In this document: positions 24,072 to 40,589 of the stretch, piece by piece | How positions within the stretch are numbered: the first letter of the stretch is position 1 | Layout of the letters: the number at the start of each line of letters is the position of its first letter | Assembly (NCBI GenBank): GCA_002704915.1 | Contig: PAIP01000027.1 | Span: 1 to 64,000, forward strand | DNA length: 64,000 nt | Direction of reading: 5' to 3' | Origin: Parvularcula sp. | GTDB lineage: Bacteria; Pseudomonadota; Alphaproteobacteria; Caulobacterales; Parvularculaceae | Position numbers and translations under genes: made by a program | The notes under the pieces: model-generated | What the model was told of the DNA's origin: nothing | Seen by the model: the letters and a program-made list of their open reading frames with translations, nothing else | The model's database searches: none

Positions 24072-25418
24072 TTAAGCTACGGCCCGCAATCCCTTTCTGA
24101 AGGCCTCGACCGTCTCATCGATTTCCGCGCGGCCCATGGTCAGAATCGGCGCGATGGCGAGATGGTCGCCATTGGCGCGGATGGCGACGCCATTCTCATA
24201 GGTCTTCAAAAAGACCTCGCCGCCACGCGCGCCGGACGCCCCGTCGCGGGAGGCCACGGTCACGCCCGCCGCCAGCCCCACATTGCGGATGTCGGTCACG
24301 TTGGGCTCGCCTTTCAGGGAATGAACCGCCTCCTCGAAATAAGGCGCGAGCTCCCTCGCCCGGTCATAGACGTCCTCCTCCGCAATTGCCTGTTGCGTCG
24401 CAAGCGCCGCCGCCGCGGCCAGCGGATGGCCGGAATAGGTGTAGCCGTGAAAGAATTCGACGCCGGTCGGCATCTCGTCCATGAACGTGTCGTAAATTTC
24501 TTTACGCACGATGGCGGCCCCCATAGGGACCGCGCCGTTATTGATGCCCTTGGCCATGGTGACAATGTCTGGCTCGACACCGTAATGGGTCACCGCATTC
24601 GCCGCGCCCATCCGCCCGAAGCCGGAGATCACTTCATCGACAATGAGAAGGATGCCGTGCTTCTTCGTCACTTCGCGCAGGCGTTTCAGATATTTTTTCG
24701 GCGGAACGAAGACGCCGCCGGACCCTGCGAAAGGTTCGACAATGACGGCGGCGATAGTCGATGCATCGTGAAGCGCGATGATCCCTTCAAGCTCCTTCAT
24801 GAAGGGTTCCACATCGATATCCGGCTCGCCGCGACTGAAAGCCTGCGTCGCCATATCGTAGGGAAAGGTCAGATGATCGACGCCCGGCAGAAGGCTGCCG
24901 AAAAATTTCCGGTTGTTGACCATGCCGCCGACAGAAATGCCGCCAAAGCCGACGCCGTGATAGCCATTGACCCGGCCGATCAGACGCGTGCGCGTCCCCT
25001 CGCCCTTGAGGCGATGATAGGCGATGGCGATTTTAAGCGCGGTGTCCGCCGCTTCCGACCCGGAATTGACGAAAAACACATTGTCGAGATCGCCGGGAAA
25101 CTGTGCGGAGATGACATTCGCCAGTTCAAAAATTTTCGGATGTCCGAAATTAAACGCGCTGGAATAATCGAGCTCGTCGATCTGCGCCTTCATGGCGTCG
25201 ACTATTTTCGGATGGCGATGACCGAGATTGCAGCACCACAGCCCCGAAAAGGCGTCGAGTATCTTCCGCCCGTCGCTGGTGTGGTAATGAAAGCCGTCCG
25301 CCCGCTCATAAAGACGCGGGGCCGCCTTGAACGCCTTGTTGGGCGTAAAGGGCATCCAGTAGGATTTCAGCCAGTCATTCTCAATCGTGCTTTGGCCGGG
25401 TTGCGTATCGCTTGCCAT
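24072..25418 (-). CDS. Class III aminotransferase (beta-alanine:pyruvate type, BauA-like)
   Basis: PLP enzyme of 448 aa that transfers an omega-amino group to an oxoacid. The start region (YWMPFTPNKAFKAAPRLYERADGFHYHTSDGRKILD, residues about 19-54) resembles BauA/omega-amino acid:pyruvate transaminases. The PLP lysine is in TMAKGINNGAVPMGA, and IVDEVISGFGRMG holds the cofactor Asp. It is the last of three genes (membrane protein, aldehyde dehydrogenase, this), 2 bp after the dehydrogenase. In a polyamine pathway it would handle beta-alanine. Other omega-amino acids are possible. Confidence 0.85.
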   Translation of the reverse strand: MASDTQPGQSTIENDWLKSYWMPFTPNKAFKAAPRLYERADGFHYHTSDGRKILDAFSGLWCCNLGHRHPKIVDAMKAQIDELDYSSAFNFGHPKIFELANVISAQFPGDLDNVFFVNSGSEAADTALKIAIAYHRLKGEGTRTRLIGRVNGYHGVGFGGISVGGMVNNRKFFGSLLPGVDHLTFPYDMATQAFSRGEPDIDVEPFMKELEGIIALHDASTIAAVIVEPFAGSGGVFVPPKKYLKRLREVTKKHGILLIVDEVISGFGRMGAANAVTHYGVEPDIVTMAKGINNGAVPMGAAIVRKEIYDTFMDEMPTGVEFFHGYTYSGHPLAAAAALATQQAIAEEDVYDRARELAPYFEEAVHSLKGEPNVTDIRNVGLAAGVTVASRDGASGARGGEVFLKTYENGVAIRANGDHLAIAPILTMGRAEIDETVEAFRKGLRAVA

Positions 25419-25420
25419 TT

Positions 25421-26914
25421 CTATTTCCGCAGTTCGATCCAGATGGTCTTGAGTTCGGTGTATTTATCGAGCGCATGAAGGGAACGGTCGCGGCCGAATC
25501 CCGATTGTTTGAACCCGCCAAAGGGCGTGGTGATGTCGCTGCCGTCCCAGCAATTGACCCAAACATTGCCGGCGCGAAGGGTTCGCGCGGCGCGGTGCGC
25601 CTTGTCGATGTCGGCGGTCCAGATGCCGGCGGCCAATCCGTAAATCGTGTCATTGCCGATCCGCATCGCCTCGTCGAAATCGTCGAAACCGATGGCGGAA
25701 ATGACCGGCCCGAAGATTTCCTCCCGGGCGATGGTCATCGTGTTGTCGACGCCGTCGAAGATCGTCGGGGCGACATAAAAGCCACCGCTTTGGCCGAGCG
25801 CGCGCTCGCCGCCGCAGACGAGTTTTGCGCCTTCGGCCTCGCCCTTGTTTATATAGGAGAGGACGGAGTTCATCTGCGTCTCGTCAACAAGCGCGCCGAA
25901 CGCCGTCTCGGGATCGAGCGGATCGCCGGGCTTTAAATCCTTTGCAATCGCCGCGACTTTTTCGAGGAAATCTTTCTTGATGGAGTTCTGCACGAGAAGC
26001 CGCGTCCCCGCCGTGCAGACCTGGCCCTGATCGTAAAAGACGGCCCACGCCGCGGCCTGCGCCGCGGCATCGAAATCGGGGCAGTCCTCCATCACGATCT
26101 GCGGGCTCTTGCCGCCGCACTCCAAGGCGACGCGTTTCAGATTGCTCTGCGCGGCGTAACCCATGATGAGCTTGCCCACCGCGGTCGAGCCGGTGAACAC
26201 GATCGCATCCACATCCATATGCAGCGCAAGCGCCTTGCCGGCTTTTTCGCCAAGCCCCGGAACCACGTTGAGCACGCCTTCGGGAAGTCCCGCTTCGAGG
26301 GCAAGCTCCGCAGTCCGCAGCATGGTGAGGCTCGCCTGCTCCGCCGGTTTGACGACCAGACTGTTGCCGGTTGCGAGCGCCGGGGCGAATTTCCACGACG
26401 CCATCAGGAGCGGGAAGTTCCAGGGCACGACAGCGCCGACCACGCCCATGGGTTCGCGCACGATCATGGAGACGGCGTTCTCCGGACTGGGGCCCAGCTC
26501 GTCATTCACCTTGTCGATGGCTTCGGCGTAATAGCGGATCGCCTGCGCAACGAGCGGAATATCCGCAGCTTTCGTATGCGACAGAGGCTTGCCCATATCG
26601 AGGGTTTCAAGCAGCGCCAGCTCTTCGGCGTTGTCTTCAATTTTCTGCGCGAAGCGAAGCATGACATCGCGCTTTTGCCGCGGCGCCAGCTTGCGCCAAT
26701 GCCCAGCCTCAAAACTGGCGCGCGCCGCAGCGACAGCGTCATCGATATCGTTTTCGTCGCAGGCGCTGATCTGCGCCAGCTCGCTGCCGTCGATGGGCGT
26801 CACGCAAGGCATTGTCGCGCCGCTTATCGCCGGACGGAACGCGCCATTAATAAAGGCGCCGGTTCGAATGGCGACGCGCTCCCTCGCTCGGGCCACGTTA
26901 TCTGAAAATGACAT
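25421..26914 (-). CDS. Aldehyde dehydrogenase (PuuC/PauC-like)
   Basis: 497 aa, NAD(P)-dependent. Motifs: VPWNFPLLMASWKFAPALATGN, the general base in ALECGGKSPQ, and the catalytic cysteine in YDQGQVCTAGTRL. The sequence is of the gamma-glutamyl-gamma-aminobutyraldehyde/aminoaldehyde type (PuuC or PauC), which oxidises aldehydes released from polyamines. It lies 9 bp after an unknown membrane protein and 2 bp before a beta-alanine-type aminotransferase, so it is cotranscribed with both. The substrate is inferred from family and island context. Confidence 0.87.
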   Translation of the reverse strand: MSFSDNVARARERVAIRTGAFINGAFRPAISGATMPCVTPIDGSELAQISACDENDIDDAVAAARASFEAGHWRKLAPRQKRDVMLRFAQKIEDNAEELALLETLDMGKPLSHTKAADIPLVAQAIRYYAEAIDKVNDELGPSPENAVSMIVREPMGVVGAVVPWNFPLLMASWKFAPALATGNSLVVKPAEQASLTMLRTAELALEAGLPEGVLNVVPGLGEKAGKALALHMDVDAIVFTGSTAVGKLIMGYAAQSNLKRVALECGGKSPQIVMEDCPDFDAAAQAAAWAVFYDQGQVCTAGTRLLVQNSIKKDFLEKVAAIAKDLKPGDPLDPETAFGALVDETQMNSVLSYINKGEAEGAKLVCGGERALGQSGGFYVAPTIFDGVDNTMTIAREEIFGPVISAIGFDDFDEAMRIGNDTIYGLAAGIWTADIDKAHRAARTLRAGNVWVNCWDGSDITTPFGGFKQSGFGRDRSLHALDKYTELKTIWIELRK

Positions 26915-26923
26915 AAAAGCTCT

Positions 26924-27754
26924 CTATTTAACTGCGCCGACGGCGCGCTGATCGGCGTTTTCTTCCTGCCATGTGAGCATGTTCATTTCGATAAAGAAGA
27001 ACGCCACAATCCACAAGAAGGCGTCCCATGCGTCCCAGGGCTCGCCCAGCATCCACCAGTAAAAAGCGCACACAAAGAGGATCGCATAAAGCAGCAGCTT
27101 TGCAGATTTGTAGGCGAGGAAGAATTTCGTGCCGAATAGTTTTGAGGAATGCAGATAAACTTCGGCCTCCAAGACAGCGACGATCACGACCCAAACGGTC
27201 GCATTCAGGACATCGGTCCAGGTAAGCCTGTTCAAGAGGCTTAGTTTTTCGGGCGTCGCCATGAGATTGGCTTTGACATTGATATAGGCCTCGCCCGCCA
27301 GGCTGGCGCAGTTTTGCGCGTCCAGCGGCGCGAATTCGTCAAGGTCGAGCACATAATTGAGGTCGCCGCCAATCAATGTGCAGGGATCGGGGCCGGAATA
27401 GAGCTCAAAGCCCAAGGGAATCCACAAGGTCGCCCAGTAGCCATAAAGCGCGTAAAGAATAATCCCGCCGCAAAGCACGGTCAGGATATTTATCGTCCAT
27501 TCAATCCCTGCCTTGATGCGGTCGTCGGGCAGAATGAAAGTCTCAAGCTCCAGAAGCAGGAGAAGGATCAGCCACGCGGCAGTGTCGATGGAATCCGTAT
27601 AGGCGACGATGATGTCGCCGATCGCAACGCCATCTTCATAGGTAATCGCGCTGCTGGTGAAATTTTCCATGAAAAAGTGGCCGGTATTGACGGCCAGCGC
27701 GAAATAAACAGCGTATTTGAAAGTCTGGTAGAGTCTGCCGGTTTTAACGATCAT
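26924..27754 (-). CDS. Unrecognised six-helix membrane protein with threefold internal repeat
   Basis: 276 aa; I do not recognise the family. Six membrane helices are likely near 12-29, 57-75, 85-111, 182-202, 213-235 and 242-261, with a loop carrying Cys125 and Cys149. Helices 2, 4 and 6 share one pattern with identical spacing: Asp/Asn, three residues, Trp, seven residues, Glu, one residue, Glu/Asn (D57-W61-E69-E71; N184-W188-E196-E198; D244-W248-E256-N258). This suggests three copies of a two-helix unit with acidic residues inside the membrane. It is the first gene of an operon with an aldehyde dehydrogenase and an aminotransferase. A cation or amine transport role is a guess. Confidence 0.7.
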   Translation of the reverse strand: MIVKTGRLYQTFKYAVYFALAVNTGHFFMENFTSSAITYEDGVAIGDIIVAYTDSIDTAAWLILLLLLELETFILPDDRIKAGIEWTINILTVLCGGIILYALYGYWATLWIPLGFELYSGPDPCTLIGGDLNYVLDLDEFAPLDAQNCASLAGEAYINVKANLMATPEKLSLLNRLTWTDVLNATVWVVIVAVLEAEVYLHSSKLFGTKFFLAYKSAKLLLYAILFVCAFYWWMLGEPWDAWDAFLWIVAFFFIEMNMLTWQEENADQRAVGAVK

Positions 27755-27830: not shown

Positions 27831-30149
27831 TCAGCGGCCGAACTCATAGGTCATGAGCACGCCGAAGGTCCGCGGCCGGCTCGGGCCGAAATAATGGGCG
27901 GGGATGAAATTGCCCCCTTCGGAAACGCCGTCGTAATAGAGCTCGTTGGTGACGTTCTCCACATAGCCGATCACGCTCCAGCCCGCATCCGATGCGTATC
28001 CGGCGCGCAAGGCCAGGTCCATATAGGCGTCGTTGACTGCATAATCCGGCTTTAACAAACCGCCATAGGTCTTGGTCTGGCCGAAAGCCTGCGCCGAGGC
28101 CTTGATCGCGCCCGGACCGACCGGATAGCTGAAGTTCAGCGACGCCGACGCAGAGAATTTCGGCACATAGCCGAGCGACGATCCCTCGCAATCGAGCGTG
28201 CCGTCGCATAGCGGCTGCGCATCGGTAACGTCGGTGTCCGCATAGGCGCCGGCGAAATAAAGATCGAAATACTCGCCGAGATCGGTAGTGGTGGACGCCT
28301 CGAAGCCCCAGCCCTTCACGTCGCCCACATTGTCGACGAGAATGCCGCCGCCCGTACCGGGCACGTTCACCTGAAGGTCTTTATACTGATAATAATAGAC
28401 GTTTGCGTCGAGGCGAGTGGCGCCGCCGAACAGGGTCCCTTTAACGCCCGCCTCGTAGGACCATACTTTTTCCGGGTCGAAGAAATTCGGCGAGGCGTCG
28501 GCGTTGGTCAGCCCGAGACAACTGTCGTCGAACGGGCCGCAATAAGTGACGCTCGAAGGCGAAATAAAGAAGCTGCCGAAACCGCCGGATTTAAAGCCGC
28601 GCGTGGCGCTGGCGAAGACCATCCAGTCATCGGTCGGATAATAGCGCGCAATAAAGCGCGGCGTGAACGCATCCCAGCTCCGCTTGTCTTCCAGCGGCTC
28701 GGCCGTAGTGAAGCCGACCCCGAAATACGGACCGAGATCGCTTGTCACCGGGGGCGCGCTGATGGCGAATTTCTTGACATCTTTCGAATAACGAATGCCG
28801 ACGCCGATATCGAATTTCTCCGACAACGCCAGCGTCGCGTCCACATAGGCCGCCCAGCCGTGATAACGCCCGCGCACGGCGTTGCTTTCCACGAGCCCCT
28901 CAGGGGTCGGCGTGAAGGCGTAATAATAATAGGCGAAATATTCCGAGCAGCTATTGATGCCGTAATAGCTCCAGTAGAACTGGCACATCACCTCTTCGTC
29001 GGCGGCCTGGGTGAAGAGAACGTCGATCTCTTCCTTGTAGTAAGAGGCGCCCGCATACCAGGAAAGCGGGCCGTCGGTGTCGGAAACGACACGCACTTCC
29101 TGTTCGAAATAGTTGCCTTCCTGATCTTGGGCGTAGGCGTTGATGCCGAGCGGCGTGCCGTCGAAATCTTCCGCGTAAATATATTCATGATCCTTGAAGC
29201 CCGTAAGCGATGTCAGCACGGCGCCGCCGAGATCATAGGAAAGCTGAAGGCCGAAGCTCAAAATCTCCGAATCGTCCGCCTCGCCAAGCTGCAAATCGCT
29301 GTCGATATCGCGGCCGTTTCCGCCGAGCGACACGCCGAAAATGTCGACGAGATTGTCCCAGCCGGGTCCGCCTTCAGTCGCCCGATAGACCGATCCTGAC
29401 TGCTTGCGGTCTTCATATTCAGCGGTGAAGAACGCCTCGAAGGGACCGTCGCTGTAAAGCGCCGAAAAACGGCCGGCGTATTTTTCCGGCTCGATCAACG
29501 GATCGTTGTTCGGGAAATAGGCGTTGTCCACATAGCCGTCTTCGTGACCGCCATAGAGGGCGAAACGAACGGCGAAGACATCGGACAGCGGAACGTTGAG
29601 CGCAGCTTCGCCGAACAGGCGGTCGCGCTCGGCGACATCGGCCTCCACATAGCCGCTGACGCCGTCGAAATTCGGACGCGCGGTATGAACGGAGATGGCG
29701 CCGCCAATAGCGTTGCGGCCGAACAGGAAACCCTGCGGCCCGCGCAACACCTCGGCGCGCTCCATATCGTAAAGGCTCGTCACCACCGCGCCGTTGCGGC
29801 CCTGATAGAGACCGTTTTTGAACAGGCCGATAGACGGGTCGCCGCCGGCGCCGAAATCGTTGGTCAGAATGCCGCGCATGGACAAAGTGTCGATGAAGCT
29901 GTCCGCGGAATTGCCGGTGACGCCCGGCGTGAACTTCACGAGGTCCTTGACGTCATCGAGATTGACCTCGCGCGTGAAGTCGCCGCTGAGCGCCGTGATC
30001 GCCAAAGGCACATCCTGAATGGACTCATCGCGTTTCTGGGCGGTGACGATGATCTCATCGCCTTGCGCCAGGGCGGTTCCTGCGAACATGGCCGCGGCCG
30101 AACAGCCGGTGAGGAGAACCCGTTTGTGGAGAGAGAGGCGTTTCATCAT
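27831..30149 (-). CDS. TonB-dependent outer-membrane receptor
   Basis: 772 aa from the ATG at 30149, which has AAGGG 7 nt upstream; the longer frame to 30230 adds a poor leader. Signal peptide (LLTGCSAAAMFAGTALAQ), TonB-box-like EIIVTAQKR, a plug with RAEVLRGPQGFLFGRNAIGGAI, and a barrel ending LMTYEFGR. Tyrosine-rich loops occur around EYFAYYYYAF. Uptake across the outer membrane is secure, the ligand is not. It sits inside an apparent amine-catabolism island, so an organic substrate is as likely as iron. The 280 bp upstream (30150-30429) must hold its promoter; I see no clear -35/-10 pair. Confidence 0.88.
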   Translation of the reverse strand: MMKRLSLHKRVLLTGCSAAAMFAGTALAQGDEIIVTAQKRDESIQDVPLAITALSGDFTREVNLDDVKDLVKFTPGVTGNSADSFIDTLSMRGILTNDFGAGGDPSIGLFKNGLYQGRNGAVVTSLYDMERAEVLRGPQGFLFGRNAIGGAISVHTARPNFDGVSGYVEADVAERDRLFGEAALNVPLSDVFAVRFALYGGHEDGYVDNAYFPNNDPLIEPEKYAGRFSALYSDGPFEAFFTAEYEDRKQSGSVYRATEGGPGWDNLVDIFGVSLGGNGRDIDSDLQLGEADDSEILSFGLQLSYDLGGAVLTSLTGFKDHEYIYAEDFDGTPLGINAYAQDQEGNYFEQEVRVVSDTDGPLSWYAGASYYKEEIDVLFTQAADEEVMCQFYWSYYGINSCSEYFAYYYYAFTPTPEGLVESNAVRGRYHGWAAYVDATLALSEKFDIGVGIRYSKDVKKFAISAPPVTSDLGPYFGVGFTTAEPLEDKRSWDAFTPRFIARYYPTDDWMVFASATRGFKSGGFGSFFISPSSVTYCGPFDDSCLGLTNADASPNFFDPEKVWSYEAGVKGTLFGGATRLDANVYYYQYKDLQVNVPGTGGGILVDNVGDVKGWGFEASTTTDLGEYFDLYFAGAYADTDVTDAQPLCDGTLDCEGSSLGYVPKFSASASLNFSYPVGPGAIKASAQAFGQTKTYGGLLKPDYAVNDAYMDLALRAGYASDAGWSVIGYVENVTNELYYDGVSEGGNFIPAHYFGPSRPRTFGVLMTYEFGR

Positions 30150-30429
30150 TAGGCCCTTTCGTTGAGCGCCGGGAATGGCGCTAAAAGGCGCGGACGCGCG
30201 AATAAGTGACTTGTGACAGATTCGTATCAATAAAGGGTATCATGAACAACGACGCAGACCGTTTTGCGATCTCATTCCGGAGGATTTCCGCCGCAGCGCG
30301 GCGAAAATATCACGGCCCACAGTACGGAATAGCCTTTTCTGACGCCAAAACAGCAGATTAGGCCAAAATTGCGCCCTCCCCGCCACCTGGTTTCAGCAGC
30401 CGGTCAGGCAGCCCGAAGGCAATACGTGA

Positions 30430-32019
30430 TCACATCTTGCCGGAGGATTCGAGGGAAAAGCCCGCATTTTTGAGGGCGGCGGCCATGGGATCGAGGGCCG
30501 TCCCGTAGCGCCGCCAACGCCCCACCGACCGGGTGTGAGTCTTTTCACGCACCTGAACCGCGCTCGCCGTCGCCACAGCCGCCTTCTGCTCATGGAAGGC
30601 GAGACATCGATCCTCCCAGGGCACTCCCAGATAGTCGATCAGGGCGCGGGCATGGGGTTCGAGATCGGCCACGGTCGCCTCATAGGACACGTCGAAAACC
30701 CGGCCGGGGAACATTTCCCGCCAGTGCGCCATGAGTTTCAGATAGCGCGCATGATGACGCGCCATCTCCTCCTGATCGTAGGAATGGTAGTAGGCCTCGG
30801 CGAAGAGCTGCTTGTAACTGGCGAAACAGGAATCCATCGGGTCCCGGGTCAAATGGACGATCTTCGCATTCGGCAATGCTGCGAGGATGAGCGGTATATG
30901 TAGATAGTTGCCCGGCAACTTGTCGACGAAACGAGGAGCGCCTTTGCGCATGGGAGCCGAGGCGCGCAGATATTCCTTGCCGAGGGCGCCCGTATCCACA
31001 TGGGCCGAGGCCCTGATCGTCTCTGGGGCCCAGCGATCGGGATTTTCGCTTTTTGTCAGTCTGCGGACGGACAGGCCGAATTGCTGCAACTCTCCCGCCG
31101 ATTCCACCATGGAGTGGCTGGCGATAATGCGTTCGATCAGCGTCGTGCCCGTGCGCGGCTGCCCCACGACAAAGATCGGCGACGGATCGTCATGGCCGTC
31201 GCGGGATTTCGCCGCCCAATCGGCGTCAAAGCTTTCCTGCAAGGCGGCGAACCGCGCCTCGTCCGCCGTTTCGTCATAGGCAATCGTGCGGCGTTTCGCC
31301 TGCGCGCCCGTTTCGAAAGCCGCGAACGCCTTTTCCCAAGCCTCGACATCTTCATATTCCTTGCCGGCGGCATAGGCGAGAAAAGCGCGGGCGTGATCGT
31401 CTCCTGCTTTGTCGGCTTTTTGCATGAGCCTGTCCGCGCGCGCCGGGTTTTCGGCTTTCTTGAGCGACGACAGGAGCCACTCGCCCTGTGCGACATCGTG
31501 TTCGGCGAGAAGGCCTGTCAGGGTGCGTTCCGCAGCCTCCGTTTCGCCCAGAAAGATTTCGGCGCTCGCCAGATTGACCTGATAGGCTGGGCGGTCCGGC
31601 GCCAGACTGACAGCGCGGACGTACCAGTCCTTCGCCTGTTGCTGATCGCCGAGCGATGACGACACGATGCCGATCAGATCCGCCGCCGCCGCATCGCCGG
31701 GATTAGCCGCAACGGCTTTTTCCAGCGCCTGTTCGGCGCGCCCCGGCTGGCCCAGACGTATGAAAATGCGCGCCAGCTGCGCCCAGCCGGCGCCATGGCC
31801 GGGCGCAAGTTTCACGACCGAGCCGAAGGCGCTGGCCGCCGTTTTCAGATCGTTCATTTCAAGCGCCGTGAGGCCCACCAGAAAATGCGTTTCCGGATAG
31901 GCGCGGTCGATCATCATCGCCGCCTTGCAGCACTCGGCCGCCTTGACGGAATCGCCGCGATTGAGGGCTGCAAACCCATCGCGCAGGAGGCCTGCAATGC
32001 GCTGTTTGCCGTCGGTCAT
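30430..32019 (-). CDS. TPR-repeat sulfotransferase
   Basis: 529 aa. Residues 1-240 form about six tetratricopeptide repeats (for example YPETHFLVGLTALEMNDLKTAA). Residues 280-520 form a PAPS-dependent sulfotransferase with the 5'-phosphosulfate loop VGQPRTGTTLIERI (PRTGTT at 288-293) and the 3'-phosphate motif RDPMDSCFASYK. No signal peptide is seen. Such TPR fusions are common in alphaproteobacteria with unknown acceptors. It is divergent from an amidohydrolase lipoprotein over an 82-bp gap that contains an 18-bp palindrome. Confidence 0.85.
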   Translation of the reverse strand: MTDGKQRIAGLLRDGFAALNRGDSVKAAECCKAAMMIDRAYPETHFLVGLTALEMNDLKTAASAFGSVVKLAPGHGAGWAQLARIFIRLGQPGRAEQALEKAVAANPGDAAAADLIGIVSSSLGDQQQAKDWYVRAVSLAPDRPAYQVNLASAEIFLGETEAAERTLTGLLAEHDVAQGEWLLSSLKKAENPARADRLMQKADKAGDDHARAFLAYAAGKEYEDVEAWEKAFAAFETGAQAKRRTIAYDETADEARFAALQESFDADWAAKSRDGHDDPSPIFVVGQPRTGTTLIERIIASHSMVESAGELQQFGLSVRRLTKSENPDRWAPETIRASAHVDTGALGKEYLRASAPMRKGAPRFVDKLPGNYLHIPLILAALPNAKIVHLTRDPMDSCFASYKQLFAEAYYHSYDQEEMARHHARYLKLMAHWREMFPGRVFDVSYEATVADLEPHARALIDYLGVPWEDRCLAFHEQKAAVATASAVQVREKTHTRSVGRWRRYGTALDPMAAALKNAGFSLESSGKM

Positions 32020-32067
32020 TCACTCACCCTGCTTGCGCGCCCTCTTGTTTAATGGAGCGGCCCGTGA

Positions 32068-32085
32068 TCATCATGGCCATGATGA
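32068..32085. promoter_or_regulatory. 18-bp perfect palindrome in a divergent promoter region
   Basis: TCATCATGGCCATGATGA reads identically on both strands and lies in the 82-bp gap between the divergent sulfotransferase and amidohydrolase genes. A dimeric regulator could control both. An immediately adjoining GTGATCA (32064-32070) overlaps its left arm. There is no evidence for a particular regulator. Confidence 0.45.
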
Positions 32086-32101
32086 AAGAATTCGTCAGGT
32101 G

Positions 32102-34141
32102 ATGAAAGAGACCCTTGAGATGCTGGCACGACCCTTTTCGATTGTATGTTTGTTGTTCATTTTCGCCGCCGCCTGCAGCGACCCCGGAAGCGCCGGCAGC
32201 CCCGATGCGAATGCGGAAAAAGTCTTTATCAATGGCCGAATTTACACCGCAGACGAAGAAAACAGCTTCGTTTCAGCAATAGCGATCGCCGGCGACGAGA
32301 TTGTCGGCGTGGGCGGCGATGATGAAATGCGCGCCCGGGCAGCGGAAGGCGCAGAGATTGTCGATCTTCAAGGCCGTCTCGTTCTGCCGGGACTTCACGA
32401 CGCGCATATCCACCCGATCAGCGCCATGCCGGTCGAGGTGTGCAGCCTTGAAAACGCGCCCACAACCCTTGCCGACATCGCCGCTTACGCCAGCAACTGC
32501 ACCACCCGTCCTGGCATGGCCGAAGGCGAGTGGCGGGTGATCATCGGCTGGAACTTCGCCGCCGGCAACCAGCCCGGAGACGACTATCAGACCATTCGCG
32601 AAGCGCTCGACGCCGTTTCAACGGATGAGCCGGTGATCCTGCGCGGCAGCGACGGCCATCATTATGCGGTGAATTCTGTCGCGCTTTCCCGCGCTGTCAA
32701 TGCGGAGGGGGAAACGGTCGGACTGACGAAAGAAACCCTGGCGACCGATTTCGCCGAACTCGCGCCTTATGTGGGCGTCGATGAAACCGGCAAGCCCAAT
32801 GGACGCCTGACGGAAGCTTACGCGCTCGAAGCCATTGGCGCCGGCAGCCTGCTGGAATCGGGTCTTGCGAAATCGCGCGAGAATCCGGAGCTCTTGATGG
32901 AGGTCACCCTGCCCCGCGGCATCACCTCCTTTCTTGACGCCGCCGCCGACCCGGCGACGCTCGATATTTATGACGCTCTGCTCGCTGACGACGAATTTCA
33001 CGCACGGGCCCATCTCGCGCTTTATTTCGATCCCGGCGCCTATGCGGACGAAACGGGCGACGTGAATTACGATGCGCTTCTCGCCGAGGCGCAGGCGATC
33101 CGCGCCAAATATCAGGACGACCCGTTGATCGAGGCGGATTTTCTTAAACTCTTCGCGGACGGGGTGATGGAGGGCGATCCCCTTTCCGACCCGCCGACCC
33201 TGCCCAATGCCGCCTATTCCGGTGTTTACCTGCAACCGATCTACGAATGGGACGAAGAAACCCAATGGGTGCGCGTTACGGGTTATGTGGATACGCAAAG
33301 CGATCTGTGCGGCCAGACCCGCGCCAGCATTGAAGCCGGAAACATGCCGGAAGCGGCCGCGTTCAAAGCCGAGCACGGCTATCACCCCATGCAATGCATG
33401 CGCGAATCCGGCGTTCTTCAGCACCCTGAAGGTATGATCATGGACTATGTGCGCAAGGGCGACGAGGCCGGATTTACCTGGCACATCCACGCCATCGGCG
33501 ATCGCGCCATCAAGGTCTCGCTCGACGCCATCGAGGCCGCGCGCGCCGCGAATGGCGATGAGAACAAACACATTCTCACCCATTTGCAGCTTGTCCGCCC
33601 GGAAGATCACGAACGCTTCGCGGCGAATGACGTTTATGCATCTTTCACCTTCGCCTGGGCCTCGCGGGATACGCAATATGACGCCACCGTCATTCCCTTT
33701 ATGGATCGCGTCGACGGCCCCGACGGCATGTATAACCCGGACGGATATTATTACAGCAACGCCTATCCGGCAGCGTCCCTGCAGGAAGCAGGCGCCATTG
33801 TCATCGCCGGCTCCGACGCGCCGGTGGACACGAAAGATCCGCGTCCCTTCGTCAATATCGAGGCGGCTGTCTCGCGTGCAATCTTCGGCCTGCCGCCGCT
33901 CAACGAAGCCGAGGCGATTTCCATCTATGACGCCGTCGACGCTTACACGATCAACGCAGCCAAGGCGTTGAAACAGGATCGCATCGCCGGGTCGCTGGAG
34001 ACCGGCAAAAAGGCGGATTTCATTATCCTGGACCGGGATATTTTCGCTCTCGCCGAGAGCGGCGAAGCGGCGGATATCAGCGAAACGAAAGTGCTCGAAA
34101 CTTGGTTCGCCGGCGAAAAAGTCTATTCGTCTACGGAATAG
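32102..34141 (+). CDS. YtcJ-like amidohydrolase lipoprotein
   Basis: 679 aa of the amidohydrolase superfamily (type 3). The N-terminal lipoprotein signal ends FAAAC (Cys25), so it is exported and lipid-anchored. The metal-binding HDAHIHP gives His102 and His104; later metal ligands are in WHIHAIGDRA and GSDAPV. YtcJ-type enzymes hydrolyse amides or cyclic amides, and the substrate here is unknown. The ATG at 32102 is used; one at 32120 is possible and would shorten the leader. Its last 19 bp overlap the 3' end of the convergent GntR gene. Confidence 0.82.
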   Translation: MKETLEMLARPFSIVCLLFIFAAACSDPGSAGSPDANAEKVFINGRIYTADEENSFVSAIAIAGDEIVGVGGDDEMRARAAEGAEIVDLQGRLVLPGLHDAHIHPISAMPVEVCSLENAPTTLADIAAYASNCTTRPGMAEGEWRVIIGWNFAAGNQPGDDYQTIREALDAVSTDEPVILRGSDGHHYAVNSVALSRAVNAEGETVGLTKETLATDFAELAPYVGVDETGKPNGRLTEAYALEAIGAGSLLESGLAKSRENPELLMEVTLPRGITSFLDAAADPATLDIYDALLADDEFHARAHLALYFDPGAYADETGDVNYDALLAEAQAIRAKYQDDPLIEADFLKLFADGVMEGDPLSDPPTLPNAAYSGVYLQPIYEWDEETQWVRVTGYVDTQSDLCGQTRASIEAGNMPEAAAFKAEHGYHPMQCMRESGVLQHPEGMIMDYVRKGDEAGFTWHIHAIGDRAIKVSLDAIEAARAANGDENKHILTHLQLVRPEDHERFAANDVYASFTFAWASRDTQYDATVIPFMDRVDGPDGMYNPDGYYYSNAYPAASLQEAGAIVIAGSDAPVDTKDPRPFVNIEAAVSRAIFGLPPLNEAEAISIYDAVDAYTINAAKALKQDRIAGSLETGKKADFIILDRDIFALAESGEAADISETKVLETWFAGEKVYSSTE

Positions 34142-34848
34142 CCGCGAACAATATTGCTCATGCCCTGCATGATGTCTTCGCGGATGACGGTTTCCAGCTT
34201 GTCCGCGTCGCCTTCGCGCAGGGCGGCAACGATTTCCTTGTGTTTGTCGTCGTCGAGCGCTGCGGTGCCGAGCCGTCCGATCACCACCCGCATGAACGGG
34301 CCCGTCTGAAGCCACAGACTTTCCACGAGCCCCAGATAAACCGGCGCCTTGGCGGTTTCATATAGCGTGAAATGAAACTCGCTGTTAAGGCGCGCATAGG
34401 CGGCGCTGTCGCCCTGCCCAATCGCTTTGTCCAGCGTTTCATCGATCGCCAGCAACGTGTCGGCAAGCTTTTCCCGGGCGCCTGCATCATCGCCGATCGC
34501 CCCTAAAGCCCGCGCTGCGAGTACCGGCTCAAGGGCGAGGCGCGCGTCGCAAAGCTCTTGAAGTTTTTCCGGGCTCATGCGCGCCACGGCGACGCGCCGC
34601 GTCGGCGTAAATTCGAGCGCGCCCTGCGCGGCGAGCTGGCGTATGGCCTCCCGCGCCGGCATGGCACTGACGCCAAATTCCGCCGCGAGCCCGCGCACGG
34701 ACAGCGCCCGGCCCGGTTCGAGCTGGCCGGAAATGATCGCCCGGCGAAGCCGCTGATAAACCTCTTCATGAATGGCGGCCGGCCGGGCCGCCGGCCCGCC
34801 TGTTTCCCCGTTGGATTTTTCCGGCTTCACCGACGCCATCGCCGTCAT
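34123..34848 (-). CDS. GntR-family regulator, FCD (FadR-like) subfamily
   Basis: 241 aa. The N-terminal winged helix (about 28-90) has EEVYQRLRRAIISGQLEPGRALSVRGLAAEFGVSAMPAREAIRQL. The C-terminal FCD ligand domain has helices with NSEFHFTLYETA and the late DDDKHKEIVAALREGD, giving the His/Asp metal or ligand site. It is divergent from the gamma-glutamyl ligase operon across 353 bp and overlaps the amidohydrolase 3' end. By position it most likely controls the divergent operon, with a small amine or acid as effector; this is inference. Confidence 0.85.
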   Translation of the reverse strand: MTAMASVKPEKSNGETGGPAARPAAIHEEVYQRLRRAIISGQLEPGRALSVRGLAAEFGVSAMPAREAIRQLAAQGALEFTPTRRVAVARMSPEKLQELCDARLALEPVLAARALGAIGDDAGAREKLADTLLAIDETLDKAIGQGDSAAYARLNSEFHFTLYETAKAPVYLGLVESLWLQTGPFMRVVIGRLGTAALDDDKHKEIVAALREGDADKLETVIREDIMQGMSNIVRGYSVDE

Positions 34849-35201: not shown

Positions 35202-36551
35202 ATGGATTTGAACGAACTTAAGGATTGGATGCGTGAACGCCGCATCGGCGACGTGTCTTGCCTGACGCCCGATATGGGCGGCGCCGCGCGCGGCAAGAAC
35301 ATGACGCCGGGCCTGTTTCTGTCGAGCCTTGAAAACAAAAGCCTGCGCATCCCCGAAGGCACCTACACCATCTCGGTGCATGGCGAGATGATTTACAACG
35401 AGTATGTCTCCGGCACGGAACGCGACCTCGTTCTCGCCCCCGATCTCGACACGATCCATCTTGCGCCGTGGAATACGGATGCAACCGCCGCCGTGATTTG
35501 CGACGCCTTCACCGATCAGGGCGCGCCTTTCAATCTCGCGCCGCGCCAGGTCTTGCGCAATGTAGTGGAGCTTTATCGCCAAAAGGGCTGGACGCCGATT
35601 GTCGGCCCGGAAGTCGAATTTTATCTGATTGCGCGCTTTGACGACGTCGTGCTCGAACCGCGCGCGCCGGACGGCGCCTCAGGACTGCGTGAATTCGGCC
35701 AGCATGTTTACTCCCTCGACGCCATCGACGAGTTCGACAAGCTGTTTGAAGAGCTTTACCAGTTCTGCGATATTCAGCATATCGACCTTGAAACGCTGAT
35801 CCATGAAGACGGGCCCTGCCAGTTCGAGGTGAATATCCGCCATGGCGAAGCGATGAGCGTCGCGGACCAGCTTTTCCTGTTCAAACGTCTCGCAAGACAA
35901 GTCGCCAAACGTCACGGCATGTTTGTCACTTTCATGGCGAAGCCTTACGCCGACGAAAGCGGCTCCTCGATCCACCTTCATCAGAGCGTGGTCGACGCGA
36001 AAACAGGTAAGAATATTTTCGCCGACGCCGCTGGCGAGGACACGGAAAAATTCCGTCATTATATTGGCGGGCTTCAGGCGCATCTCCCCGCCGCGATGCC
36101 GCTCTTTGCGCCCTACACCAACTCCTATAACCGCTTCGAGGCGTTTATGAGCGCGCCGACAAACACCCATTGGGGCCGCGAAAACCGCACGGTCGGCCTG
36201 CGCGTGCCGGCAAGCGGACATGCGGCGCGGCGTATCGAGAACCGGATTTCCGGGGCCGATATCAATCCTTATCTGACCATCGCCGCCTCGCTGGTCTGCG
36301 GTTATGTGGGCATGATCGACAAAATCGAACCGCGCGCGGAATATGTTGGCGAAGGCTATGAAGACCGCGAACGCCCGCTGCCCATGACGCTCACGGAAAG
36401 CGTGGAGATTTTTGCGAAGTCCGCTGCGCTCAAGAAATATCTCGGCGAGGGCTTTGTCGAGACTTACGCCGCAATCAAACGATCCGAATACGAACACCGC
36501 TCCAGCGTCCTCTCACCCTGGGACGTGCGCTATCTTATGGTCAATGTGTAA
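35202..36551 (+). CDS. Glutamine synthetase-like gamma-glutamylpolyamine synthetase, paralog 1
   Basis: 449 aa of the glutamine synthetase fold. ATP-grasp residues lie in GPEVEFYL and QFEVNIRHGEA, and GSSIHLHQS, NSYNRFEAF, ENRTVGLRVP and RIENRISGADINPYL complete the site. It belongs to the PuuA/PauA-type relatives that join glutamate to amines, not to GlnA: it is shorter, and the adenylylation-site region and subunit latch of GlnA are not recognisable. It is the first gene of an operon with a transaminase, a second such ligase and a PuuB-like oxidase, divergent from a GntR gene. The amine specificity is unknown. Confidence 0.85.
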   Translation: MDLNELKDWMRERRIGDVSCLTPDMGGAARGKNMTPGLFLSSLENKSLRIPEGTYTISVHGEMIYNEYVSGTERDLVLAPDLDTIHLAPWNTDATAAVICDAFTDQGAPFNLAPRQVLRNVVELYRQKGWTPIVGPEVEFYLIARFDDVVLEPRAPDGASGLREFGQHVYSLDAIDEFDKLFEELYQFCDIQHIDLETLIHEDGPCQFEVNIRHGEAMSVADQLFLFKRLARQVAKRHGMFVTFMAKPYADESGSSIHLHQSVVDAKTGKNIFADAAGEDTEKFRHYIGGLQAHLPAAMPLFAPYTNSYNRFEAFMSAPTNTHWGRENRTVGLRVPASGHAARRIENRISGADINPYLTIAASLVCGYVGMIDKIEPRAEYVGEGYEDRERPLPMTLTESVEIFAKSAALKKYLGEGFVETYAAIKRSEYEHRSSVLSPWDVRYLMVNV

Positions 36552-36553
36552 TC

Positions 36554-37918
36554 ATGAAACCGAATGTCGACATCAAGGCGCTGGACAACGCCCATCACCT
36601 TCACCCCTTCACCACGCATCATGAATTGCGCGAAACGGGCCCGCGCGTCATCACGCATGCGGAAGGCGTCTATATCTATGACGAGGATGGAAACCGCATT
36701 CTCGACGGCATGGCGGGCTTGTGGTGCGTGCAGCTTGGCTATGGACGCCAGGAGCTGGTCGATGTCGCCGCCGAGGCGATGAAGAATTTGAGCTATTACA
36801 ATCTCTTTTTCCAGACGACGACGCCTTACGCGGCGAAACTCGCCGACCTCATTTCGCAGAAAACACCCGAAGGCCTCGACCAGATCACCTTCGCCTCTTC
36901 GGGGTCGGAAGCGGTCGACAGCGCTATCAAGCTGATCTGGTATTACTGGAACCTCAAGGGCAAACCGGAAAAGAAAGCCATCATCGCGCGTGAGCGCGCC
37001 TATCATGGATCGACCGCGGCGGCGGCGAGCCTTTCGGGCCTGCCCTTCATGCAGGGCATTTTCGATTTGCCCCTCCCGCGTTTTCATCATGTGGCGCCGA
37101 CGCCCCATTATTACGAATACGCCGAACCGGGCGAGAGCGAGCGCGACTTCGCCATGCGCTGCGCCAAGGCGCTGGAAGACAAGATCCTTGAACTCGGCCC
37201 CGAAAATGTCGCCGCCTTCGCCGGCGAACCGGTGATGGGCGCCGGGGGCCTGATGCTGCCGCCCGAAGGCTACTGGGCGGAGGTCGAACGCATCTGCCGG
37301 AAATACGACATCCTTCTGTGGTCGGATGAAGTGATCTGCGGGTTCGGGCGCACGGGCGAATGGTTTGGCTGCCAGAAATACGGCTTCACGCCGGACATCA
37401 TGACCATGGCGAAAGGCATCACCAGCGGTTACATTCCCCTTTCCGCCGTGGCGCTCAGCAACACTATGGCCGAGCCGATCATCAACGCCGATACGGAAAT
37501 GGCGCATGGCTTCACCTATTCCGGCCACCCGGTCGCGGCGGCGGTCGCGCTCCGCAATATCGAACTCCTTGACGAGCTGGACCTTGTCGGTGAGCACGGC
37601 GCCAGAACAGCCCGCTATTTTCAGGCGAAACTGAAAACCCTCGACGACCACCCACTGGTGGGCGAAACACGCGGCGTGGGCCTGCTCGGCGCCATGGAAC
37701 TCGTCAAAGACAAACATAAGAAAGAACGGTTTTCTCCAGACGGCCGCGCCGGCACGCTCTGCCGCAACAATTGCTTCAACACCGGCGTCGTGATGCGCGC
37801 CGTGGGCGACACCATGTTTTTGTGTCCGCCCCTCGTCATCACCGAAGATGAAATCGATGCGCTGTTCGATCTGGTGCGCAAGGCGCTGGATAAGACGGCG
37901 ATTGAATTAGGCGTTTGA
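36554..37918 (+). CDS. Putrescine/spermidine:pyruvate-type aminotransferase (SpuC-like)
   Basis: 454-aa class III PLP aminotransferase. The start HHLHPFTTHHELRETG (about 15-30) and RILDGMAGLWCVQLGYGRQEL closely resemble SpuC. The PLP lysine is in MTMAKGITSGYIPL, and the cofactor Asp is in WSDEVICGFGRTG. It would remove a terminal amino group of putrescine or cadaverine with pyruvate as acceptor. It starts 2 bp after the first ligase gene, and its stop is 8 nt before the second, so it is within the operon. It is a distant paralog of the enzyme at 24072. Confidence 0.87.
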   Translation: MKPNVDIKALDNAHHLHPFTTHHELRETGPRVITHAEGVYIYDEDGNRILDGMAGLWCVQLGYGRQELVDVAAEAMKNLSYYNLFFQTTTPYAAKLADLISQKTPEGLDQITFASSGSEAVDSAIKLIWYYWNLKGKPEKKAIIARERAYHGSTAAAASLSGLPFMQGIFDLPLPRFHHVAPTPHYYEYAEPGESERDFAMRCAKALEDKILELGPENVAAFAGEPVMGAGGLMLPPEGYWAEVERICRKYDILLWSDEVICGFGRTGEWFGCQKYGFTPDIMTMAKGITSGYIPLSAVALSNTMAEPIINADTEMAHGFTYSGHPVAAAVALRNIELLDELDLVGEHGARTARYFQAKLKTLDDHPLVGETRGVGLLGAMELVKDKHKKERFSPDGRAGTLCRNNCFNTGVVMRAVGDTMFLCPPLVITEDEIDALFDLVRKALDKTAIELGV

Positions 37919-37926
37919 CGCATATC

Positions 37927-39303
37927 ATGCCGGCATCGCAGCAAGACCTGAAGAAGAAAGCGAAGACATTTCTGGACGCTCATCCGGACGTGAAGTTCGT
38001 CGATGCGTTTCTTTCCGATCTCAACGGCGTGTTGCGCGGCAAGCGATTGCCCGCAAAACAGGCGCTCAAGATCTTCGATAACGGATTGCGCCTGCCGCGC
38101 TCGCTCATCGGCGTCGACATCTGGGGTTACGATGTCATGGCCAACGGTCTTGTGCTTGAAACCGGCGATGTGGATGGCTTGTGTTATCCGGCTAGCGCCG
38201 GGCTTCTCCCCGCGCCATGGAGTGGCGGCGACGCGGCGCAAATCATGCTGATGATGGGCGATGAGGACGGCGGCCCCTTTCATGCAGATCCGCGACAATT
38301 GCTGATCGACATGCAGGCGCGCCTCGCCGGGGCGGGCCTTCACCCGGTCGCGGCCATGGAGCTCGAATTCTATCTTCTTTCTCGCAAGACGGACGAGCTC
38401 GGGCGCCCGCTCCTGCCCGCACGCAACGCGACCCGGCGTCGAATCGGCGATGCGCGCATGTATGCGATCAGCGAACTCGACAATTTCGGCGGGTTTTTCG
38501 CCGATCTTTACGCCGCCTGCGAAGCGCAGGGCCTGCCGCTCGGCGCCGCGATTGTCGAGGGAGGCGCCGGACAGTTCGAAGTCAACCTCATGCACCAGCC
38601 GGATGCGGTCGCCGCCGCCGATCAGGCCGTCCTCTTCCGGCGCACGGTCAAAGGCGTCGCCGACAAACATCAGCTTATCGCCAGCTTCATGGCGAAACCG
38701 TTTGGCGATCTTGCGGGGAACGGCCTTCACGTTCACATGAGCATGCTGAACGACAAGGGGGAGAATGTTTTTGCGGGCGACGATGACAGCGGGTCAGAAA
38801 TGCTGCATCAGGCGGTCGCCGGACTTCTTGCCGCTGCGCCGGAGGCCATGATTTTCCTGGCCCCGCATTTGAATTCTTATCGCCGGTTTCAGGACGCCAG
38901 CCACGCGCCGACCTCTCTCACCTGGGGCTATGAAAACCGGACCGCTTCGATCCGTATTCCCAATGACGGGCCCGCGAACCGCCGCTTCGAATTCCGCATC
39001 GCCGGCGCCGACGCCAATCCCTATTTGCTGATGGCCTCGCTCCTCGCCGGCGCGCTTCACGGCGTTCAAAACAAGCTGACGCCGCCAGCAGCGACGGAAG
39101 GCAACGCCTATGAAGCGGACGCGCCAAAAGTTCCAACGGCGTGGAACGACGCGATAGACGCGTTCGCACAAGGAAAAATTCTGGCGCCGCTCTTTGGCGA
39201 TCTTTTCACGCGCGTCTATACTGCGCTTAAACAGCAGGAATTGCAGAAAGCGAATGAACGCGTGACCGATTTTGAATATGACACCTATCTGCAGGCTTTC
39301 TAA
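37927..39303 (+). CDS. Gamma-glutamylputrescine synthetase, paralog 2 (PuuA-like)
   Basis: 458 aa. Runs close to E. coli PuuA along its length: FVDAFLSDLNGVLRGKRLP near the start, then VAAMELEFYLLSRK, GQFEVNLMHQPD, FMAKPFGDLAGNGLHVHMS, NSYRRFQ, NRTASIRIP and RFEFRIAGADANPYL. It ligates glutamate to putrescine in the Puu route. I prefer the ATG at 37927; a TTG at 37915 overlapping the upstream stop is possible. It overlaps the oxidase gene by one base (TAATG). Having two such ligases flank a transaminase suggests two amine substrates or two steps. Confidence 0.88.
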   Translation: MPASQQDLKKKAKTFLDAHPDVKFVDAFLSDLNGVLRGKRLPAKQALKIFDNGLRLPRSLIGVDIWGYDVMANGLVLETGDVDGLCYPASAGLLPAPWSGGDAAQIMLMMGDEDGGPFHADPRQLLIDMQARLAGAGLHPVAAMELEFYLLSRKTDELGRPLLPARNATRRRIGDARMYAISELDNFGGFFADLYAACEAQGLPLGAAIVEGGAGQFEVNLMHQPDAVAAADQAVLFRRTVKGVADKHQLIASFMAKPFGDLAGNGLHVHMSMLNDKGENVFAGDDDSGSEMLHQAVAGLLAAAPEAMIFLAPHLNSYRRFQDASHAPTSLTWGYENRTASIRIPNDGPANRRFEFRIAGADANPYLLMASLLAGALHGVQNKLTPPAATEGNAYEADAPKVPTAWNDAIDAFAQGKILAPLFGDLFTRVYTALKQQELQKANERVTDFEYDTYLQAF

Positions 39304-40589
39304 TGCAGGCGAGAGAACCCCATACATCTTCCTATTACGCCGCAAGCGCGCATTCAGGGCCGGAGCGTCCGGCGCTGAGCGAAACCGTGGAGGCCGATGT
39401 CGCCATTGTCGGCGGCGGCTTTACGGGCGTGTGTTCCGCGCTGTCCCTTGCTGAGCGCGGTCATTCGGTTGTCTTACTCGAAGCGAACCGCATCGGCTGG
39501 GGCGCCTCGGGCCGCAATGGCGGACAGGTGTTGGGCGGTTGGTCAGGCGAGAGCGAACTCGCCAAGCAGGCGGGCCCGAAAGCGGAAGAGTTTTTGTGGA
39601 AGACGCGCTATCTCGGCAATGAAATCGTCGAGGCGCGCATCCAGAAATACGACATCAAATGCGATTATGTGCATGGCGCGGCGACCGTGGCCTTTAATGC
39701 AAAACAGATGAAGGGCCTTGAAGAAGAATACGCCGACAGCGTCGAACACGGGTTCGGCGACTATATGGAGCTTGTGGACGGGCCGCAGCTTCGCCGACAC
39801 GCCGCCACCGACGCTTATATCGGCGGGCTCATCGACCGGCGCGGCGCCCATTGCCATCCGCTCAATCTCCTGTTGGGCGAAGCCGCCGGGGCCGAGAAGA
39901 ATGGCGTTCGCATTTACGAAGGAACGCCCGTCACGAAAATCGATCACGGCCCTTCGCCGGCGGTTCACACGGAAAACGGCCGGGTCAATGCCAAACAGGT
40001 CATTCTTGCAGGCAACGCCTATCACACGCTTGAGAAGAAGACGCTGCACGGGCTGATGCTGCCCGCCAAGACCTATGTCATCGCGACGGCGCCGCTTGGC
40101 GACGAACTCGCTGACGAATTATTGCCCGATAATCTGGCGATCTGCGATTCCAACTGGGTGCTCGATTATTTCCGTCTGACCGGCGACAAGCGCCTGCTCT
40201 TCGGCGGGCGCTGCACCTATTCCAATCGCGACATTGATGACATCGAGGGCGAACTCGCGCCGCGCATGCGCCGCATATTTCCGCAGCTTGAAAACACGAA
40301 GGTGGACTTCGCCTGGGGCGGCGTCATCGGCATTCCGTTAAACCGCGTGCCATTGATCGGCAAAGCGAGCGAGAACGTGTTTTATGCGCAAGGCTATGCC
40401 GGCCATGGCGTCAATTGCGGCCATATTGTCGGCGAGATGTTTGCGGATGCGATCCGCGGCAAGGAGAGCGGCGTCGATCTCTTCGATAAGGTGAGCCATT
40501 TCCGCATTCCCGCCGCCGATACGATTGGCGGGCCCATGCTGGCGCTCGGCATGACCTGGTACCGGATGCGCGACGCGCTTGGCGTTTAA
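39303..40589 (+). CDS. FAD-dependent gamma-glutamylputrescine oxidase (PuuB-like)
   Basis: 428 aa, DAO-type flavoprotein. Dinucleotide fold at AIVGGGFTGVCSALSLAERGHSVVLLEA (GGGFTG about 37-42), then WGASGRNGGQVLGGWSGE typical of PuuB/PauB, and a C-terminal FAD segment YAQGYAGHGVNCGHIVGEM. It oxidises the gamma-glutamylated amine to an aldehyde, ammonia and H2O2, feeding an aldehyde dehydrogenase. It is the last gene of the operon, overlapping the ligase stop. A PuuD/PauD-type amidase to release the product is not in the window. Confidence 0.88.
   Translation: MQAREPHTSSYYAASAHSGPERPALSETVEADVAIVGGGFTGVCSALSLAERGHSVVLLEANRIGWGASGRNGGQVLGGWSGESELAKQAGPKAEEFLWKTRYLGNEIVEARIQKYDIKCDYVHGAATVAFNAKQMKGLEEEYADSVEHGFGDYMELVDGPQLRRHAATDAYIGGLIDRRGAHCHPLNLLLGEAAGAEKNGVRIYEGTPVTKIDHGPSPAVHTENGRVNAKQVILAGNAYHTLEKKTLHGLMLPAKTYVIATAPLGDELADELLPDNLAICDSNWVLDYFRLTGDKRLLFGGRCTYSNRDIDDIEGELAPRMRRIFPQLENTKVDFAWGGVIGIPLNRVPLIGKASENVFYAQGYAGHGVNCGHIVGEMFADAIRGKESGVDLFDKVSHFRIPAADTIGGPMLALGMTWYRMRDALGV

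Follow-up and report, generated by a model that had tools for sequence, protein, structure and literature searches.

A family of triplicated six-helix membrane proteins encoded with Puu-type genes as candidate polyamine importers

The window analysed here, a stretch of 64,000 nucleotides from Parvularcula sp. (contig PAIP01000027.1), encodes on its minus strand (26924..27754) a six-helix inner-membrane protein of 276 amino acids with a triplicated two-helix unit, a member of an unnamed family that is proposed to import polyamines. Because the family is encoded among polyamine-breakdown genes and its hosts mostly lack known uptake systems, it probably takes polyamines in. Judged from gene context and alignments, there is a good chance that its members are inner-membrane importers that feed the catabolic gamma-glutamylation (Puu) pathway and stand in for PotFGHI or PuuP, their substrates then being putrescine, spermidine or close relatives. 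This would make it likely that a known pathway is served here by a new importer family. We infer transport itself, and with it direction, substrate, energy source and site geometry.

Co-occurrence with PuuB and replacement of PotF

Co-occurrence was followed in a panel of 80 genomes, comprising 58 carriers of the family and 22 chosen non-carriers and leaving out one genome with a single weak partial match (G1306). PuuB (E≤1e-60) is present in 52 of the 58 carriers versus 3 of the 22 non-carriers (as a guide, Fisher p=2e-10), and within the window's genus in 3/4 carriers versus 0/11 non-carriers. A PotF-type protein (E≤1e-10) was found in 4/58 carriers and in 1/22 non-carriers; since the non-carriers of this first panel are thus mostly without PotF themselves, its absence alone is uninformative and only the contrast among PuuB-positive genomes counts. 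All four carriers with a PotF-type protein are PuuB-positive, which corresponds to 4 of the 52 PuuB-positive carriers.

For comparison, 212 genomes of the class were drawn, with a completeness of at least 90% and a PuuB cut-off of E≤1e-80, and 43 of them proved PuuB-positive, namely the window genome and 42 others. The family gene was found in none of these 42 (0/42) in a search run without an internal positive control, the 42 presumably being part of the class sample that gave three matches. At E≤1e-10, a PotF-type protein occurs in 41/42 PuuB-positive non-carriers versus 4/52 PuuB-positive carriers (Fisher p=8e-21) and at E≤1e-40 in 36/42 versus 3/52 (p=3e-16), where the p-values, like the one given above for PuuB, serve only as a guide because the genomes are related, the carriers come from few lineages and the counts are not independent. 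In the samples searched, the family and PotF replace each other, as is expected of an importer.

The same exchange can be seen in gene order. In the non-carrier G1210 the genes are arranged as puuD-glnA-aminotransferase-potF-potG-[567-aa ORF]-puuB-aldehyde dehydrogenase-puuA, while in six loci of carriers the family gene comes immediately after the puuD-glnA-aminotransferase series, in the place taken by potF-potG in G1210. A close PuuP was not found in the 80-genome panel (best match 27% identity), to which the PuuP search was confined. At E≤1e-10, 32 of the 80 genomes contain APC-type proteins matching PuuP at 21-29% identity, which counts against the importer reading. Of the 52 PuuB-positive carriers, 48 lack a PotF-type protein and not one possesses a close PuuP, and for their polyamine import the family offers a testable candidate gene.

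Gene context in the window and in relatives

In the window, the family gene is followed at a distance of 9 bp by an aldehyde dehydrogenase gene (25421..26914, minus strand), whose product is 51% identical to E. coli PuuC, and then by an omega-aminotransferase gene (24072..25418, minus), whose product matches the NCBIfam AptA equivalog with 646 bits at a cut-off of 500. These neighbours are those described in an earlier note on this DNA, which had not given the strand of the family gene. The same note had taken the family gene for the leader of the operon, and this has to be corrected, because the co-directional gene of a TonB-dependent receptor (27831..30230, minus; true start not fixed) precedes it with a gap of 76 bp. 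Also upstream lie genes for a TPR-sulfotransferase (30430..32019, minus), an amidohydrolase-type protein (31925..34141, plus) and a GntR-type regulator (34123..34848, minus), the NCBIfam matches of the latter two all being under cut-off. They are followed on the plus strand by genes for a glutamine-synthetase-like ligase with 31% identity to PuuA (35202..36551), a class-III aminotransferase of the PRK07480 subfamily (36554..37918), a second glutamine-synthetase-like ligase with 39% identity to PuuA (37915..39303) and an FAD oxidase with 44% identity to the gamma-glutamylputrescine oxidase PuuB (39303..40589). Among the ORFs examined between 24072 and 40589, no further inner-membrane transporter is encoded.

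The context in relatives was compiled from 53 loci of 49 other genomes with a reach of 10 kb, some genomes contributing two or three loci and some loci ending at contig ends. Neighbours were labelled by BLAST to chosen references, the aminotransferase and aldehyde dehydrogenase labels being valid at superfamily level. Among the 53 loci, puuA-like genes are present in 39, puuB in 36, puuD in 25, puuC in 21 and puuR in 7, another class-I GATase gene in 9 and a spermidine dehydrogenase gene in 4. Rather than being unrelated in most genomes, an outcome that the earlier note had listed as refuting its interpretation, the neighbours include at least one of puuA, puuB, puuD, GATase and spermidine dehydrogenase in 46/53 loci, and puuA or puuB in 45/53. 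Identities to the E. coli Puu proteins, measured for a selection of proteins encoded in the window and in loci L031-L033, are 51% for PuuC, 43-58% for PuuB, 30-39% for PuuA, 35-45% for PuuD and 41% for PuuR. Within 250 bp, 49 of the 54 family genes of full length have a neighbour in the same orientation whose product matches one of the reference proteins (not only of the Puu set), and in 14 of the 54 the puuD ORF, whose start was assigned mechanically, overlaps the end of the family gene by 4 bp. The most divergent member, L009, adjoins a spermidine dehydrogenase gene on the opposite strand at 108 bp (PDB 7d9i, E=4e-144). The family gene behaves as a component of Puu loci, being encoded with puu-type genes across lineages, and its link to polyamines is well supported by gene context.

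TonB-dependent receptor genes are found in 37 of the 53 loci, TPR-sulfotransferase genes in 33 and amidohydrolase genes in 14. As a speculation, the receptor and the sulfotransferase might belong to a dedicated outer-membrane step, maybe for a larger or rarer amine. In three loci (L033:9746-10972, L077:10457-11677 and L078), a protein of 406-408 amino acids with one weak NCBIfam match is encoded by an ORF that overlaps the end of the family gene, by 4 bp in two of them and by 1 bp in the third.

Transporter genes of other kinds occur near some members, and this is counted against the importer reading. Within the reference types chosen, to which the counts apply, NhaC-like genes were found in 7/53 loci, SSF and SMR genes in 3 each, and MFS and potG-like ATPase genes in 2 each, and a further SSF-type cluster (one member checked) is present in 4 loci. 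The window genome itself has, on another contig (C1, loci L120-L121), a second amine-type cluster for PuuB-like (47%) and GlnA-like proteins, which also encodes two TonB-dependent receptors along with an APC permease and an MFS protein; the APC permease and the MFS protein in this glnA/puuB-like cluster weigh against the importer reading as well. The NhaC-like and SSF genes, the further SSF-type cluster, the APC permease of the second cluster and the distantly PuuP-like APC-type proteins in 32/80 genomes would suit a family that has an accessory role in the membrane during polyamine catabolism, such as that of a sensor, a regulator or an oxidase partner, with uptake left to another permease. 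Such a role is nevertheless unlikely, given that none of the transporter types sought lies near the family gene in more than 7/53 loci, that the predicted model consists of six helices and one cap with no signalling domain, that histidine exceeds 23/53 in no alignment column, which speaks against a heme-b electron carrier, and that the replacement between PotF and the family is the pattern an importer would give.

The SMR efflux gene that follows the family gene in 3 loci could also be read as a sign of export, with the family expelling toxic amines or exchanging a polyamine for a product such as GABA, and amine antiport is known from PotE and CadB, as described in the polyamine-transport account of PMC11998418. 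This reading is distinctly improbable, as the family is tied to catabolic genes, as the gene pair that follows the same three genes (puuD-glnA-aminotransferase) in the non-carrier G1210 belongs to an ABC importer, and as a swap for a product would still amount to polyamine import.

Polyamine import, the preferred reading, meets further counter-evidence in the 7/53 loci in which the core genes are missing (L021, which is truncated and has PuuC, and L077, L082, L085, L086, L109 and L115), together with a homolog on an IMG/VR contig that lies beside a SAM-synthetase gene. In L077, L085 and L086, FAD-oxidase and aminomethyltransferase genes are present. In L085 and L086, the family gene is accompanied by two genes of the flavin amine-oxidase type and one aminomethyltransferase gene, types that Pfam assigns in L085. 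The members of these two loci perhaps serve a different amine, and it could be asked whether the family as a whole imports mainly amines other than polyamines, for instance methylated or aromatic amines processed by ligases and oxidases of a similar kind. Other amines can also serve as substrates of such GlnA-like ligases, and the divergent members L041 and L045, encoded in L085 and L086, have the neighbours just described. With PuuD, PuuR and spermidine dehydrogenase among the neighbours, which indicate polyamines, such an extension to the whole family has only a slim chance of being right.

A repeated tryptophan/acid motif and a triplicated hairpin

The earlier note had pointed out a spaced pattern of tryptophan and acidic residues in helices 2, 4 and 6, and all twelve residues (D57/W61/E69/E71, N184/W188/E196/E198 and D244/W248/E256/N258) are where it placed them. 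The helix-2 motif D-x3-W-x7-E-x-E (residues 57-71) is encoded at 27542..27586, the helix-4 motif N-x3-W-x7-E-x-E (residues 184-198) at 27161..27205 and the helix-6 motif D-x3-W-x7-E-x-N (residues 244-258) at 26981..27025, all on the minus strand. The pattern [DN]x3Wx7Ex[EN] occurs exactly three times in the window protein; in 200,000 shuffles of its sequence, three matches arose 0 times and two matches 4 times. On an ideal helix, the motif positions span one arc of 160 degrees.

Conservation was counted in alignment A3 of 53 members, from which fragments and duplicates were removed along with the G516 copy and every match lacking a locus. The three 15-column motifs are free of gaps in every row, and W61, W188 and W248 are each invariant (53/53). 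In helix 2, D57 is kept in 52/53 rows (1 E), E69 in 53/53 and E71 in 50/53 (3 Q); in helix 6, D244 and N258 are kept in 53/53 and E256 in 50/53. Helix 4 is more variable: N184 is conserved in 49/53 rows and replaced by E in four, position 198 is acidic (D or E) in 49/53, and at position 196, that of the first helix-4 acid, 37 rows have E, 11 have W, 4 have Q and 1 has A. Homologs lacking the W/E pattern, named in the earlier note as a refutation, do not occur among the 53 as regards the tryptophans and E69, and only the first helix-4 acid is often replaced (16/53); this acid, part of one of the intramembrane acidic pairs of the earlier note, is not universal. Under a loose definition, all three copies are complete in 37/53 members, and the variable helix-4 acid is a weak point of the motif that counts against the importer reading. 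Further columns conserved in 53/53 rows are K13, T72, C125 and C149. The rows with E at position 184 are the four most divergent ones, L009, L041, L045 and L046, the last three coming from loci L084-L086.

Whether the repeated motif reflects a repeated unit was addressed by comparing helix profiles of the 53 members with one another. The even helices align in register over 21-24 columns (TM2-TM4 E=3e-6, TM2-TM6 E=3e-3, TM4-TM6 E=2e-3), and in a control in which the columns of the second helix were shuffled, so that helical periodicity is not kept, none of 200 shuffles scored as high as the real profiles for any of these pairs. Among the odd helices, TM1 and TM5 match over 20 columns (E=2e-4) and share the signature K-x3-Y-x2-(L/I/M), found in 51/53 rows in each of them; in the window protein it reads K13-x3-Y17-x2-L20 in helix 1 (27695..27718, minus) and K219-x3-Y223-x2-L226 in its repeat partner, helix 5 (27077..27100, minus). 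Helix 3 is a weak member of the repeat (TM3-TM5 E=0.013, TM1-TM3 E=0.1) and carries the signature in degenerate form. A match between TM5 and TM6 arises because their windows overlap and hold common sequence, and the remaining even/odd pairs align over 1-6 columns at E≥0.03. As whole hairpins, the first matches the second with E=2e-5 (54 columns) and the third with E=5e-4 (44 columns), and the second matches the third only weakly, with E=0.017. At the profile level of these alignments, the triplication of a two-helix unit claimed in the earlier note is real.

Predicted structure and proposed mechanism

An AlphaFold2 model of the window protein, predicted from A3, reached a mean pLDDT of 89.2 and a pTM of 0.86, with helices at residues 7-38, 53-74, 82-108, 168-203, 209-235 and 239-271, the third and fourth of which are separated by a small mixed cap. 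The most divergent member, modelled from an alignment with 42 others (A4), shows an identical layout (pLDDT 90.8, pTM 0.84). The structure prediction suggested in the earlier note has thus yielded two confident models of six-helix proteins, repeat symmetry being seen at the profile level. In Foldseek searches against the PDB, neither model found anything at E≤0.001 (best E 0.39 and 0.22), although the absence of a PDB match to predicted models does not prove a new fold.

The cap is predicted to comprise residues 111-167 (27254..27424, minus), is acidic and includes the two invariant cysteines C125 and C149; across members, the helix 3-4 loop has a mean net charge of -5.5 (range -13 to +2). The other loops assigned to the outside average -1.1 and -1.2, and those assigned to the inside +1.9, -0.1 and +2.0. 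This would fit a topology with both termini inside, to which the charge of the C-terminus (-2.0) lends no help, and with it the cap would be periplasmic, where C125 and C149 could form a disulfide. By the helix limits of the window protein's model, D57 would lie near the periplasmic end of helix 2 and E69 and E71 near its cytoplasmic end, and for that reason the acids would appear to be arranged as a ladder and not gathered in a single central site.

Tryptophan together with carboxylates suits the recognition of amines and ammonium groups, and PotD-like proteins also use tryptophan and acids. In the mechanism proposed here, the protein would be built from three tandem two-helix hairpins, with helices 3 and 4 flanking the acidic periplasmic cap, and every even helix would line one of its faces with an Asp or Asn, a Trp and one or two carboxylates. 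The cap would attract the polycation, a layer of Asp/Asn and Trp on the periplasmic side would recognise ammonium groups through their charge and through cation-pi contacts, and a layer formed by E69/E71-(E196/D198)-E256/N258 would hand the polyamine on to the cytoplasm. The inside-negative membrane potential could serve as the driving force for uniporter- or channel-like passage, with proton coupling via Glu as a possibility, and PuuA-like ligases would trap the imported amine as its glutamyl derivative. The full combination, in which a new fold absent from the PDB, a hairpin triplication like that of the mitochondrial carriers though unrelated to it, a pseudo-threefold Trp/carboxylate path, potential-driven polyamine import and the substitution of PotFGHI/PuuP by a non-homologous protein in several lineages of proteobacteria come together, perhaps behind a dedicated TonB-dependent receptor, is put forward tentatively, as it would be less surprising for one of its parts to fail than for all of them to hold.

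Relation to known families and transport systems

The earlier note did not recognise the family, and the searches agree with it. The window protein has 0 Pfam and 0 NCBIfam matches at E≤1, and its single match among PDB sequences has E=0.89; a 9-row family profile found no match in the PDB. NCBIfam was scanned with the window protein and Pfam with the 53 members, where matches to 9 families appeared, all weak and limited to single members (best E=0.0029), which were dismissed as chance.

Among known importers, PotFGHI and PotABCD are the closest in the proposed job, a PotF-type protein being the counterpart found in nearly all PuuB-positive non-carriers, but the family consists of one 276-aa membrane protein without a match to an ABC family. 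An ABC polyamine importer was accordingly rejected as an identity, neither the window protein (at E≤1) nor any of the 53 members matching such a family. PuuP is a putrescine:H+ symporter of the APC type. It resembles the family in being a single-component importer of the Puu pathway, the role proposed here, and differs from it in size, with 461 against 276 amino acids and six helices in the family protein. Membership in the APC superfamily was likewise rejected, the window protein having no family match and 1/53 members matching Aa_trans with E=0.0029 only. The polyamine-transport account of PMC11998418 gives PuuP as the importer of the Puu pathway.

The mitochondrial carriers of the SLC25 type are likewise made of three two-helix units in tandem, in which charged residues recur on corresponding helices, and carry the signature P-x-[DE]-x2-[KR] in each repeat; the likeness is a lead on the mode of action only. 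The family shares the three tandem two-helix repeats, clear in the even helices and weaker in helix 3 and between hairpins 2 and 3. The SLC25 signature is found once only, at residues 76-81 after helix 2, and there is no Pfam or PDB fold match, so that this candidate was set aside. SMR exporters such as EmrE and MdtJI are small proteins that handle organic cations with membrane carboxylates; the family protein differs in having no SMR match, and the SMR gene that adjoins it in three loci is a separate one. Cytochrome b561 and other heme-b membrane proteins, which have conserved histidine heme ligands, were rejected as well, histidine exceeding 23/53 in no column and one member's Pfam match reaching E=0.035 only.

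The polyamine transporters named in the transport accounts of two reviews comprise PotABCD, PotFGHI, PuuP, PlaP, PotE, CadB, MdtJI and a few others, and nothing in these accounts resembles the family protein (PMC11998418; PMC9397018). In the open-access literature, no title among the matches listed deals with the family, and no paper was found that joins gamma-glutamylation, putrescine and a TonB-dependent receptor. If the proposal is right, the polyamine transporter families gain one, counts of polyamine users that are based on pot genes need correcting, and a compact triplicated membrane protein becomes available for the study of repeat evolution and polycation recognition.

Distribution of homologs

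Genomes were counted as carriers at a match of E≤0.001, with the window genome included in the counts for its order (9/299 genomes), class (3/385) and phylum (3/398). In the family of G957, which belongs to another class, 8/196 genomes carry the gene, and in the order centred on G965, of the same class, 40/147 do, fragments and one weak partial match included. The spread is patchy even within the window's genus, where the gene is present in 4 genomes, the window's included, and 20 others are listed without it. A scan of genome contigs with the single sequence found 5 loci, the near relatives being Marinicaulis flavus, whose homolog is 74% identical, and MAGs of Parvularculaceae and Alphaproteobacteria, and the most divergent member, L009, is 22% identical in A3.

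Plasmid searches with two family members gave no match. Among viral contigs, one homolog was found on a contig of IMG/VR (L119:4971-5777), as the second examined ORF after the SAM-synthetase gene; this contig of 10.7 kb has no BLAST match to the Puu reference proteins and is possibly host DNA in a viral collection. In G1222 the family gene occurs a second time as a broken copy (L090:2378-2701), which encodes a piece of 107 amino acids and has a gene for spermidine dehydrogenase in its vicinity (L090:5231-7129; PDB 7d9i, E=2e-151).
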